Assembly: GCA_028280615.1 (NCBI GenBank)
Contig: JANQLK010000018.1
Location: 52,962-116,961 of the forward strand
Direction of reading: 5' to 3'
Length of the DNA stretch: 64,000 nucleotides
Source: Woeseiaceae bacterium
Lineage (GTDB): Bacteria > Pseudomonadota > Gammaproteobacteria > Steroidobacterales > Woeseiaceae
The position numbers were made by a program, and so were the translations under genes. The notes under the pieces were generated by a model. That model did no database searches and was not told the origin of the DNA. It saw only the letters and a program-made list of their open reading frames with translations. Positions within the stretch are counted from its first letter, which is position 1, and each line of letters begins with the position of its first letter. This document shows, in pieces, positions 40,938 to 56,904 of this stretch.

Positions 40938-41540
40938 ATGCGCCAAAGATTCCTGTTGCCGGCCGTCCTGCTGTTCGCGGCCTGTGCGAGCGAGACGCCC
41001 TACGACCCGCTGGACGACTACGAGGAGGTCGATGCCGTTACGATACTCGACGCGCCGAGCCCCTCGCCCGGCCGCTTCGCGCCGGGTGAGCGCGATGCCG
41101 TGGTGCGCGGCGAGTACCTGGTCGAACTGCTCGGCTGCGGAGCCTGCCACACACCGGGGGCGCTCGATGGCCAGCCGGACATGAGCCGATCGCTCGCCGG
41201 CTCCGGAACCGGAATAGCGTGGTCCAACCCGCTGGGCACCGAGCGGCCGGGCATCGTCTATCCACCGAACATTACGCCCGACGAAGACACCGGCATTGGC
41301 GGCTGGACCGACCGTCAGATCGCGGAAGCTATCCGCGCAGGTCTGGGGCGCCACGGCGGCCGCCGCATCATGACGATGCCGTGGCAGGGCTATGCGCGGC
41401 TGTCGGACGACGACGTCACCGCGATGGTCGCTTACCTGCGCACGCTCGATCCGGTTCGGCATCGGGTCCCGGCCCCCGTCGAGCCCGGTCAGGTGGCTCG
41501 CGATCCTTTCGTCTATTTCGGCGTCTACCGCCGACGCTGA
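40938..41540 (+). CDS. Cytochrome c lipoprotein
   Basis: A 200-aa protein. The start is ATG 40938, not the track's 40737. A lipobox signal (LLPAVLLFAACAS) and a single CGACH heme site (LLGCGACHTPGALDGQ) are followed by NITPDEDTGIGGWTDRQIAEAIR and later MTMPWQGYARLSDDDVTAMVAYL, with Met as likely axial ligand. This layout matches mono-heme cytochromes in alcohol-dehydrogenase-associated chains. It is divergent from the ThDP enzyme gene. It probably accepts electrons from a periplasmic dehydrogenase that is not in the window. Confidence 0.88.
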   Translation: MRQRFLLPAVLLFAACASETPYDPLDDYEEVDAVTILDAPSPSPGRFAPGERDAVVRGEYLVELLGCGACHTPGALDGQPDMSRSLAGSGTGIAWSNPLGTERPGIVYPPNITPDEDTGIGGWTDRQIAEAIRAGLGRHGGRRIMTMPWQGYARLSDDDVTAMVAYLRTLDPVRHRVPAPVEPGQVARDPFVYFGVYRRR

Positions 41541-41549
41541 TACAGGACA

Positions 41550-42170
41550 CTAGCGCCGGGTCAGGAGACGGTCGACATAGGCTAACGCGTCGTCCGAACC
41601 CGACTGTACGAGCCAGAAAAGCGCCTGTTTGCGGAGCTCCATCGTCCGGCGGCGATCCTCGAGCAGGGAGGTGAGCGCGTCGAACGCGGCGTCGCCGCCG
41701 TGCATCGGGATTGCCGCCAGGATCTCGGCGTTGTCGTGCCTGTCCCTGGAGATCCGCGCGCTGAGCCAGCGAACGCTGGCCTCGGATTCGACGCGACCGA
41801 GGTCGGCGATTTCGCTCGACGTGCTGACCGGGCATTCGGCGTTGAGGGCCCGGACGCGATCCGGCTTGCCGTCCCGCATGCGCACGTACACGCGTATCTC
41901 GTCGGAGTCCAGCACGCAGTCGCCGCCGATCGTATGGCCGCCGCGCTTGCCGTCCAGGTCACAGACGCGCCGGGTGACGGCCCGGCCGCCATGCCAGCCG
42001 TAGCAGCAGGTCCTGGCGCCCGTCGAGCTCGCGGCGGCCGTCCAGCTGTACCAGCCATCGATCCGCGGCACGTCCAGCGTACCGACCGGCCGGGCAGCCT
42101 CCTCTGCGACGGCAGGCCGCGCGATCGCGAGCAGCGCGGCCGCGAGCCACACGATCCGCCGCCGGCTCAC
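41550..42170 (-). CDS. Secreted protein with C-terminal HEAT-like region
   Basis: A 206-aa exported protein with signal peptide (WLAAALLAIARPAVAEE). A Cys-containing middle part (TCCYGW, CDLDG, DCVLDSDEIRVYVRM) is followed by ~80 helical residues ending RRTMELRKQALFWLVQSGSDDALAYVDRLL, a HEAT-like repeat. The GTG start at 42170 overlaps the stop of the upstream HEAT gene (GTGA). It is the last gene of a sigma/anti-sigma/HEAT operon. No family name can be assigned with confidence. Confidence 0.7.
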   Translation of the reverse strand: MSRRRIVWLAAALLAIARPAVAEEAARPVGTLDVPRIDGWYSWTAAASSTGARTCCYGWHGGRAVTRRVCDLDGKRGGHTIGGDCVLDSDEIRVYVRMRDGKPDRVRALNAECPVSTSSEIADLGRVESEASVRWLSARISRDRHDNAEILAAIPMHGGDAAFDALTSLLEDRRRTMELRKQALFWLVQSGSDDALAYVDRLLTRR

Positions 42171-53963: not shown

Positions 53964-54974
53964 CTAGCGTCCAAATCGCTCGATGAGGAACCGCCGCATG
54001 TCCGCCCTCGCGGCCGGATCAATGGCGTTGATGCAGGGTACCTGGGCGAGCTTGCCGACCAGGTCGATCGCGGCTGTCGTATTCGTTGCCGGCCCCGTTA
54101 CGAGGTCCGGCTCGAGACCGAAGGCCTGCATGACACCGACGACCGCGTAGGGGTCCGATGCGCATAGCACCGTCAGGACGACGTTGTCGCCGAGCTCGTC
54201 GATCGCGGCCGCGCCGTTGTAGGGCTCGAGCGGAGATGCGCCGGCCTCGGCGACGAGGATGTCGGGGCGATGCGCGTCGATGTGCGCAAGCAGCGGCCGG
54301 ATTGCCGCGCGGAAATCGGCTTCGGACACGATCGTCGAGGGCAGGCCGGCATCGACGAAGTCGTAGATCTCGGCCGCGCCCGCGTCGCGAAACGCGAGGA
54401 TGTCGCGATAGCGCCCGGCGCCGGTGAGCTTGGCACCGACTACGTGCCGCCCGGCCTCGGCGAGCAGGCCGCATATCAGGCGCCCGGTCACAGTCTTGCC
54501 GGCGGACATGGACGTACCGACTATCGTGACCGTCGGCGTCGAGAACGCGCGTTCAGCGTGCCGGATCGAATAGTCGCGCATAACGAGTTTGCTGCCGCCG
54601 CGCACGGCGTGTCCCTCGTAGACGAGATTCATCGCGCCGGGCAGCAGGGTCGACAGCGACGTGAACCGGCCCAGCAGGCCGGCGCTCGTCAGCGCGTGCA
54701 TGCGGCCGTCATCGCCGATTTCCTCGAAGCTGCCGGCGCCTTCGAGCGTGGCCGCGCGGACGCCGAATGCCCCGACGACCCGGTCGCCGGCGGTCGCGGG
54801 CTTCATGCTGCCGTCGGGGGTTTCGACCTGGTACAGCCGCGTTGCTTCGCCCACCACCGTGCCGATCACATAGTCGCCGGTTTCCCAGCGGTCACGAGGC
54901 AAGGCCTCAACGGCAAAGTCCCGCTCACCGAGGTCGGCGATCCGCGTGAGCGACCCGAACAGCGTGGCGGTCAC
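53964..54974 (-). CDS. P-loop NTPase of DUF1611/dethiobiotin-synthetase-like type
   Basis: A 336-aa protein. The N-terminal ~140 residues are beta-rich (VIGTVVGEATRLYQVETPDGS). A P-loop domain follows: Walker A-like VTIVGTSMSAGKTVTGRLICGLL, a KLTGAGRYRDI segment, then DILVAEAGASPLEPYNGAAAIDEL and VVLTVLCASDPYAVVGVMQAFGLEPDLVTGPATNT. The order resembles DUF1611 and dethiobiotin or cobyrinate synthetase folds. It overlaps the M20 peptidase gene by 4 bp. The reaction is unknown; the context suggests metabolism of an acylated amino acid. Confidence 0.75.
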   Translation of the reverse strand: MTATLFGSLTRIADLGERDFAVEALPRDRWETGDYVIGTVVGEATRLYQVETPDGSMKPATAGDRVVGAFGVRAATLEGAGSFEEIGDDGRMHALTSAGLLGRFTSLSTLLPGAMNLVYEGHAVRGGSKLVMRDYSIRHAERAFSTPTVTIVGTSMSAGKTVTGRLICGLLAEAGRHVVGAKLTGAGRYRDILAFRDAGAAEIYDFVDAGLPSTIVSEADFRAAIRPLLAHIDAHRPDILVAEAGASPLEPYNGAAAIDELGDNVVLTVLCASDPYAVVGVMQAFGLEPDLVTGPATNTTAAIDLVGKLAQVPCINAIDPAARADMRRFLIERFGR

Positions 54975-56143
54975 TGGCCCGCCTCCGACTCAGCCGGCAA
55001 CAGCAGCAGCAACACGAGCAGCGCCGTTCGTTCGAGCGTCCGGTCGATGTCCAGGTGCTCGTGCTCCGCGTGCGCGCCATCGCCGACCGGGCCGAGACCG
55101 TCCAGCGTCGCCGTGAACTGGCTGGTCGTGTTGCCGTCCGAACCGCCGCCGGCGCGAGCCGCCACGAGTTCGAGGCCGAGCCGCGCTCCGGCCTCGCGCG
55201 CCTGCTCCCAGAGTGCGCGATTCGCGGGCGTCGCCTCCATCGACGGCCGCCCGATCGCGCCCTCGACGTGCAGCCTGACGCCGCGCGTGCTGGGCTTGAG
55301 CCCGTGTATCGCCCGTTCGATTGCATGACCGTCCTCGACGGTCGGTACGCGGACATCCACGACGGCCATGCTGTGCGGCGCGATGACGTTCGGCTGTATG
55401 CCGCCGTCGATCGTGCCGACGTTCACCGTGATGCCTTTCGCGGCGTCGTTCAGCGCAAACAGCTGCTGGATGACGTGCGACAGCTCGAGAATTGCGCTGG
55501 CTCCGCCCTCGGGGTCCAGGCCTGCATGCGCCGCTTTGCCGAACACGGTCACGGTGAACCGGCCGATGCCCTTGCGCTCGGTCTTGATGGCCCCGGCTGC
55601 GCCCATCGCGGGCTCGAGGACGTAGGCGCGCACGGCGCGTCGCGCGAGCATGCGGATGTAGCGCGTCGACGACCGGCTGCCGATCTCCTCGTCGGCGTTG
55701 ACGAAAACCACGGGCGTTGCCTCGGGCTCGAGCCCGAGCGTATCGAGCGTGCGCAGCGCGAGCACCATCTGCGCGAGACCGCCCTTCATATCGAACACGC
55801 CGGGTCCGCGCACGATGTTGCCCTCCACCGAAAACGGCCTCTCGGCCAGCGTGCCGACCGGCCACACCGTGTCGTAGTGACCGATCAGGAGCTGCAGGGG
55901 CGCGTGCCGCCGCCGCGTCCCGGGCCGCGCGTAAACGTGTCGCGGCCCGCCCTCGAGGCCTGCATCGCGCACCCGGAAGCCAAGATCGTTGAGCGCGACG
56001 TCGAACACGCGCCGGGTCGTGATGTGCACGTCGGGGTGCGACGACGGCGACTCGGCCTCGACGAGCGCCCTCAGAAGTTCGAGCAGCTCCGCGCGCCGGC
56101 TCTGCGTGTGGGCGAGTACGTCTGCGGCGATGTCCACGAGCAT
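54971..56143 (-). CDS. M20 metallopeptidase (carboxypeptidase G2-like)
   Basis: A 390-aa zinc peptidase. The metal site HYDTVW (residues about 83-88), GPGVFDMKGGLAQM, and NADEEIGSRSS (catalytic Glu-Glu) match the CPG2/glutamate carboxypeptidase group. A dimerisation domain lies in the middle (GRFTVTVFGKAAHAGLDPEGGASAI), with a C-terminal AARAGGGSDGN segment bearing further metal ligands. No signal peptide is seen, so it is cytoplasmic. Its AGGA ribosome site, 6 nt before the ATG, lies within the end of the adjacent inverted-repeat element. It likely releases an acyl or peptidyl glutamate-type product. Confidence 0.9.
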   Translation of the reverse strand: MLVDIAADVLAHTQSRRAELLELLRALVEAESPSSHPDVHITTRRVFDVALNDLGFRVRDAGLEGGPRHVYARPGTRRRHAPLQLLIGHYDTVWPVGTLAERPFSVEGNIVRGPGVFDMKGGLAQMVLALRTLDTLGLEPEATPVVFVNADEEIGSRSSTRYIRMLARRAVRAYVLEPAMGAAGAIKTERKGIGRFTVTVFGKAAHAGLDPEGGASAILELSHVIQQLFALNDAAKGITVNVGTIDGGIQPNVIAPHSMAVVDVRVPTVEDGHAIERAIHGLKPSTRGVRLHVEGAIGRPSMEATPANRALWEQAREAGARLGLELVAARAGGGSDGNTTSQFTATLDGLGPVGDGAHAEHEHLDIDRTLERTALLVLLLLLPAESEAGQ

Positions 56144-56146
56144 CTA

Positions 56147-56286
56147 GTGTCCTGAGTCATGAGTTCGCATCATTTCAGCGCGATCTGCCTCGCGTGTGGC
56201 AAGGTCTCGACCTTGCCGGCGGAATGCGCCTTGTCACGGCGAAAATCAGTGGCTCTGAAATCATGCGAACTCATGACTCAGGACAC
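56147..56286. repeat. 140-bp inverted-repeat element (MITE-like)
   Basis: GTGTCCTGAGTCATGAGTTC at the left begins a 32-bp arm (56147-56178) repeated in inverted orientation at 56255-56286 with one mismatch. The 76-bp centre contains a second inverted repeat, GGCAAGGTC/GACCTTGCC (56198-56217). It has no ORF and fills nearly the whole gap between the flavin reductase stop and the M20 start. No target-site duplication is evident. Such a structure fits a miniature transposable element or REP-like palindromic unit. The RNA would fold into a long hairpin. Confidence 0.8.
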
Positions 56287-56292
56287 AAGCCA

Positions 56293-56904
56293 TCACTTCT
56301 TCATTTCGGCCGGGAACGGGAACGCGTTCGTGTCACCGATCGTCGCGAACCGGCCCGGCGCCAGGTACGCGAACAGCGGCGACTGCCGGATCAGGTCCTG
56401 GTCGTCGAATTCGGAGGCGCGCAGAAAACGCGAATCGCCGTAGGCCGACACGATCGTGCCCGCGATCAGGCAGTTGTCGCCGAACCCGTCGACGGTCTTG
56501 AGGTGACGGCACTCGAGGTACAGGTAGGCGCCGTCGATGACGACGCCGTCCACCTCGCGCGCCTTCTGCGTCGGCAGATAGTCGACGATCGGCTTGTCGC
56601 CGTCGACCTGCCGCGGTGACGCCGACAGGCTGGTCTCGAGCACCTGCGCCGGCCGAGGGTAGCTGACCGTGAATACGCCGCTTCGCTCGACGTTGGCACA
56701 GGTCGCATGCCGCGGCGTGCAGACGAAACCGAAGTAGTTCTGCCAGCCCATCGGCATGACCATGTGCTTCGGCGCGAGATCCGCTTTGCCGTTCTCGTCG
56801 AGCGTCCCGACGAGCACGAGCGGGGCCACGTGAAAGAAGCGGTCCCAGATGGGCTGGCCGACGTCGATGTCGACCGGCTTGGAGTCGTCAGTGTTGCCTG
56901 ACAC
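56293..56904 (-). CDS. Flavin reductase-like FMN-binding split-barrel protein
   Basis: A 203-aa protein. VAPLVLVGTLDENGKADLAPKHMVMPMGW, then FVCTPRHATCANVERSGVFTVSYP is the flavin reductase domain fold. The AYLYLECRHLKTVDGFGDNCLIAGTIV region is the barrel's later strand. It probably binds FMN and reduces or transfers it, or is an uncharacterised oxidoreductase. It is upstream of the M20 peptidase, separated by the inverted-repeat element, so cotranscription is uncertain. Confidence 0.85.
   Translation of the reverse strand: MSGNTDDSKPVDIDVGQPIWDRFFHVAPLVLVGTLDENGKADLAPKHMVMPMGWQNYFGFVCTPRHATCANVERSGVFTVSYPRPAQVLETSLSASPRQVDGDKPIVDYLPTQKAREVDGVVIDGAYLYLECRHLKTVDGFGDNCLIAGTIVSAYGDSRFLRASEFDDQDLIRQSPLFAYLAPGRFATIGDTNAFPFPAEMKK

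Follow-up and report, generated by a model that had tools for sequence, protein, structure and literature searches.

MITEs as such are already known, and REP/REPIN sequences are hairpin modules that occur in inverted doublets and in many copies. The element described here, which lies in a window of 64,000 nucleotides (the whole stretch of Woeseiaceae bacterium DNA that was analysed), resembles REP/REPIN in its hairpin modules, inverted doublets and high copy number, but differs in having IS630-type ends and a CTAG target. It resembles the IS630 family (IS630, ISY100; Tc1/mariner-like) in its CTAG/TA target, in duplicating the TA and in having the terminal sequence of intact IS630-family elements, but it has no transposase and measures 146 bp, where those elements reach about 1.15 kb; the preference of IS630 for the TA in CTAG, and the duplication of this TA on insertion, have been published (PMC2170065 and the Tenzen papers cited in it). 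RUP of Streptococcus pneumoniae, a MITE for which IS630-Spn1 has been proposed as the source of mobility (PMC2229807), is likewise short, non-coding, intergenic and TA-flanked, with ends in common with an IS630 element; here, however, the stems of the 268-nt double-hairpin parent covary and its terminal repeats are of several types. Correia/NEMIS of Neisseria, for which RNase III processing has been proposed (PMC2229807), is a TA-flanked MITE forming a hairpin in mRNA, and in these descriptive features it is like our element.

According to the comparative analyses presented below, the feature is very probably an internally deleted, non-autonomous IS630-type MITE inserted at a CTAG between two genes. 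Taken on its own it is an ordinary MITE of this type, and it is the family of its 268-bp parent that holds the value.

Insertion site and the M20 start

The element corresponds exactly to positions 56147-56286, that is, 140 bp lying between the TA target duplications, with the flanking TA excluded. The features of the locus are as follows:

54971..56143, minus strand: M20 family metallopeptidase/deacylase gene, its ATG directly abutting CTAG (PF01546 and PF07687 above cut-off)
56144..56289, unstranded: MITE insertion including what is left of the target (CTAG ... CAAG), 146 bp; multicopy, absent from 24 orthologous loci
56145..56146, unstranded: left TA target duplication, inside CTAG; CTAG stands at most copies' ends
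56147..56178, plus strand: left terminal inverted repeat, starting GTGTCCTGAGTC; this end also bounds IS630-family IS in other genomes
56150..56153, minus strand: AGGA, spaced 6 nt from the M20 ATG; every base paired in the predicted fold of read-through RNA
56197..56204, plus strand: TGGCAAGG, junction left by the loss of 122 internal bp of the 268-bp parent; found at both parent breakpoints, the junction falling at element positions 53-61
56198..56217, unstranded: inner palindrome GGCAAGGTC-TC-GACCTTGCC, a product of the deletion
56255..56286, minus strand: right terminal inverted repeat, 31/32 match to the left repeat
56287..56288, unstranded: right TA target duplication, mutated to AA; CTAG here in other copies
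56293..56904, minus strand: flavin-reductase-like gene, upstream of M20 (PF01613 above cut-off; conserved pair)

The nested architecture reported in the earlier note, with 32-bp arms matching at 31/32 positions around a second, inner palindrome, was recovered in full; the arms extend to 35/38, with 70 nt separating the 38-nt arms, and a simple arm scan of the 64-kb window returned this as the sole inverted repeat of such size. No chance matches to the 20-bp end motif were obtained in 100 shuffles of the window, and the element folded as RNA reaches -88.6 kcal/mol against -42.3 +/- 4.0 in shuffles (z = -11.6). This copy encodes no transposase, and the ORFs crossing it run out beyond its ends. 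Elsewhere in the window, a weak match to the element end (CTAGTGTCCTGTATC, two mismatches) was observed on the minus strand at 41539-41553, perhaps the relic of a solo end and perhaps a coincidence.

Orthologs of the M20 gene were found in 25 of the 60 genomes searched, its own genome included. At the 24 loci where both genes were readable the element is absent, and the last flavin-reductase codon stands 1-19 nt from the equivalent of the M20 start; thus, the comparison with relatives lacking the element, as proposed earlier, revealed a clean insertion into CTAG in the window. On the minus strand the order reads flavin reductase ...AAGAAG-TGA-TGG-CTTG-(element)-CTAG-ATG, and the M20 frame, whose inferred ATG is located at 56143-56141, is still open after the insertion (390 aa, ATG intact). 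The window copy is thus a transposase-less element that splits a tight gene pair with neither gene broken.

The earlier note was also right in placing the element end at the M20 start region with a well-spaced AGGA, 6 nt before the ATG on the minus strand, a spacing that fits because CTAG happens to directly precede the ATG here. The further claim that the element supplies the M20 ribosome site is true only literally. By single-sequence folding without ribosomes, all four AGGA bases show a probability of being unpaired of 0.00 in the read-through transcript, which stands against any useful supply, whereas in a model of the empty site the flavin-reductase gene ends in a purine-rich AAGAAG whose GAA is about 0.99 unpaired. 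For an RNA that starts within the element, single-sequence folding frees the GA of AGGA but leaves the AG mostly paired. The two genes were nearly contiguous; the insertion parts the stop from the start by about 150 nt and would lock the incoming AGGA in a stem, so that M20 translation from read-through mRNA would be expected to fall unless something opens or cuts the hairpin (e.g., RNase III) or transcription starts inside the element. According to these folding models, loss of coupling between M20 and its native signal is a likelier effect of the element than provision of a working ribosome site, and the most likely outcome would be weaker or uncoupled M20 translation. Of the related claim that the element sets translation or transcript folding of the gene, the ability to alter transcript folding holds, and useful ribosome-site supply does not.

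The best-surviving alternative is that the element has been co-opted as an M20 leader, with its end serving as ribosome site and its hairpin regulating translation. The AGGA at spacing 6, the intact ATG, the open 390-aa frame and the unpaired GA half of AGGA in folds missing the 5' part of the hairpin agree with such a role. We nonetheless consider it improbable, given the complete pairing of AGGA in folded read-through RNA, the lack of a promoter consensus inside the element (neither a sigma-70-like promoter nor a terminator was found in it), the finding that start codons are not enriched beside the ends of other copies, and the absence of the element from every relative that could be read. 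A portable ribosome site as a general property was likewise rejected: start codons stand beside element ends at about the expected rate, with 33 at six offsets over 132 ends of outside loci against an estimated 6 x 3/64 x 132 = 37.

Copies, autonomous relatives and solo ends

The 15-bp element end CTAGTGTCCTGAGTC was used for copy counts. The whole-genome search yielded 17 exact sites and 46 sites within two mismatches, against 2 for a reversed control pattern, so that the count proposed in the earlier note supports a mobile repeat. The other copies in the window genome comprise two 268-bp copies (96% identical to each other), one diverged 268-bp copy and one 91-bp copy, together with numerous isolated ends and with palindromes of 35-42 bp made up solely of arms. 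Ends are TA-flanked, and those of most copies carry CTAG. The window element is short and noncoding, bears terminal inverted repeats, belongs to a repeat present at multiple sites and faces an empty site in relatives, as in MITEs; the IS630 type is indicated by ends common to an autonomous IS630-family element and by TA duplication with CTAG preference, the right TA of the window copy reading AA. No real relatives of the element were found in plasmid and phage collections.

In a scan of bacterial and archaeal genomes, the CTAGTGTCCTGAGTC 15-mer was found at both ends of 1.13-1.19-kb elements at nine loci, in Streptomyces, Amycolatopsis, Frankia, Acidobacteria and Chloroflexi. In most of these a long frame (365-389 aa) resembles a transposase gene, and one scanned product matched the NCBIfam IS630 model NF033545 at 276.6 bits (cut-off 100) and has DDE_3 and HTH_32 domains. 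Within the order, two members (G247 and G286) hold an intact 1170-bp IS with CTAGTGTCCTGAGTT ends. A matching-type IS630 transposase was not found in the window genome, a 58-contig draft from which a collapsed repeat copy could escape; only a weak, partial IS630 transposase match (42.9 bits, in a 316-aa frame) was present in it. We propose that a CTAG lay between the stop of the flavin-reductase gene and the start of M20, and that an IS630-family transposase, acting in trans via the GTGTCCTGAGTC terminal repeats, would have cut and pasted the element into its TA, which would have been duplicated.

Two side observations concern related ends. In several of the 1.13-1.19-kb elements the frame closes with (N/S/P)DSGH-stop, codons that come from the terminal repeat and the TAG flanking it; IS630 transposase genes ending in this manner (DSGH, stop) were noted at L080, L086, L103, L106, L109, L118 and L155. 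The genome G056 (L068, L071, L073, L277-L300) contains a separate family of closely similar MITEs of ~165 bp with CTAGTGTCCTGAGTT ends, 76 ends in all.

After setting aside three with longer arms, the window genome holds 32 short solo ends (loci including L028, L030, L037, L041, L042, L046, L267 and L270). Eight of these carry TAG exactly 17 nt from their start (P about 1e-11 versus the local TAG rate), and 11/32 a CTAG-like word at 16; three 17-bp units CTAGTGTCCTGAGTCAT were found head to tail at C17:2743-2793 of G000 (L031:1484-1534). Because some intact arms also carry TAG at offset 17 (ATTAG beside ATGAG), we put forward only as a hypothesis that solo ends are scars of imprecise excision, each left by a deletion between the arm TAG and the right-flank TAG, with tandem scars arising by repeated insertion into the regenerated CTAG. 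A wealth of solo ends seems to characterise the window genome: in G056 a single candidate was found (L278), and most G056 ends belong to the elements of about 165 bp. One solo end (L036:1501-1540) lies between nrdR-like and ribD-like genes, its TAG forming the upstream stop. A role of solo ends as conserved regulatory sites was unsupported, the nrdR-ribD gap of relatives having no solo end.

The 268-bp parent family

The 146-bp form corresponds to the joined left and right parts of a 268-bp copy, with six mismatches and the junction in TGGCAAGG. The window copy has lost 122 bp between 8-bp direct repeats of TGGCAAGG, a deletion that also made the inner palindrome. Full copies of 268-269 nt were identified in G000 (3), G005 (2), G036 (2), G009, G015 and G016 (2), with parent copies at L002:1326-1593, L003:1326-1593, L271:1224-1491, L375-L380, L383 and L385; the parent occurs across the genus.

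The parent fold is of fixed length, with an outer stem formed by the terminal repeats closing two hairpins. Among 11 copies, 95.7% of cells were paired, a figure inflated by the structure having been derived from the same sequences. Changes on both sides were found in 72/98 pairs against 36.5 in shuffles (none of 500 shuffles reached it), and covariation among the 11 copies was 0.609 against 0.176 +/- 0.012 in shuffles, a control that ignores relatedness of the copies, and at or below 0.098 in slid controls, which account for relatedness. A structure drawn from the same sequences hardly explains this sixfold covariation gap. The hairpin tips are sequence-conserved and reverse complements of each other, and transposition alone does not explain this conservation.

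An apparent excess of G.U pairs, considered as RNA evidence, was rejected as an artefact of a one-strand structure: G.T and A.C numbered 61 versus 24 with the plus-strand structure, 28 versus 66 with the minus-strand one, and 28 versus 24 on the common pairs predicted from both strands. Since the two are about equal on common pairs, one transcribed strand is not what is kept; the symmetry of the parent, which shows no strand bias, is probably kept at the DNA level rather than as RNA. Given this lack of bias, the stem pairing of the family may be kept on DNA by template-switch correction of hairpins or by selection on the DNA fold.

An RNA-selected structured RNA or attenuator, of which the window copy would be a remnant, is suggested by the very strong covariation and the conserved tip sequences. 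This reading is nevertheless very unlikely, as pairing is kept equally on both strands and favoured on neither, each tip is the reverse complement of the other, the ends and target are of transposable-element type, and no Rfam family corresponds to the parent, the window copy and full copies yielding just weak, chance-like matches below the gathering score. Least credible of all, and close to dismissal, is a host REP/REPIN-type repeat moved by a REP-associated tyrosine transposase, since the inverted doublets of the hairpin module across many genomes are outweighed by the 15-bp identity to IS630 ends, which would have to be due to chance, by the CTAG/TA target and by core copies with matching IS630 ends in G094.

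Spread of the core, possible exchange of ends, and stop codons

Of 246 genomes in the order, 35 were matched by a one-hairpin covariance model, and the matches often formed inverted doublets with about 6 bp in between. The model also picked up the double hairpin in L115, a MITE of a gammaproteobacterium that is bounded by CTAGTGTCCTGAGTC, and a single hairpin in L132; the window copy scored only 16 bits, as expected given its deletion. The double-hairpin superfamily did not turn up in Rfam or in the literature searched, where element-end and core-motif sequences gave unrelated matches only.

The terminal-repeat types around the core comprise CTAGTGTCCTGAGTC or CTAGTGTCCTGTCCGG; CTAGTGTGCTGTCCC; CTAGTGCTCCATCAACC; CTAGTGGGYCGCTTGG; CTAGTACTCCGTCAA or CTAGTAGTCCGTCAAGG; and CTAGGGAAGCTCTGATC. 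The core was observed joined to several unrelated CTAG-type terminal repeats at L390, L396, L399, L400, L401, L404, L405, L408, L410 and L415. In G094, the only genome in which a resident IS630 end was seen to match the core, the resident IS630 elements and the core copies both end in CTAGTGTGCTGTCCC, and AGTGTGCTGTCCCATAA is common to the core copies and one IS630. The end CTAGTGTGCTGAGTTAGAAGTTCG of a degenerate IS630 in G056, by contrast, matches the resident 165-bp elements and not the core copy of that genome, and resident IS630 ends in G230 and G243 do not match the core copy examined. With a match in G094 and mismatches in G056, G230 and G243, end-swapping between IS630 types is therefore only suggested. 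We tentatively propose, as a possibility that falls somewhat short of even, that a 268-nt DNA double-hairpin core, modular and palindromic at the DNA level with conserved tips, has spread through the order by taking different IS630-type terminal repeats, its stems being rewritten pairwise on both strands.

Regarding the target, frames with at least 100 open codons at element ends were counted, comparing the frame stopped by the TAG of CTAG with the other two. This frame was open in 59/132 cases against 34 and 14 at outside loci, counts that are not independent as these loci include repeat-ending transposase genes and several copies of one element; the corresponding values were 13/25 against 9 and 4 in G000, and 8/32 against 3 and 0 in G056. 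The target CTAG is often a stop codon, which the insertion restores.

The fixed-length double hairpin, changing in matched pairs throughout the order, is the part deserving follow-up. The parent family offers a natural case for weighing template-switch correction against selection on the DNA fold in long bacterial palindromes, its strand-symmetric covariation making the question of palindrome maintenance testable, and it bears on whether non-autonomous elements change transposase by changing ends. Covariation this strong commonly passes for proof that an RNA is functional; the family calls for caution, as mobile palindromes can give it too.
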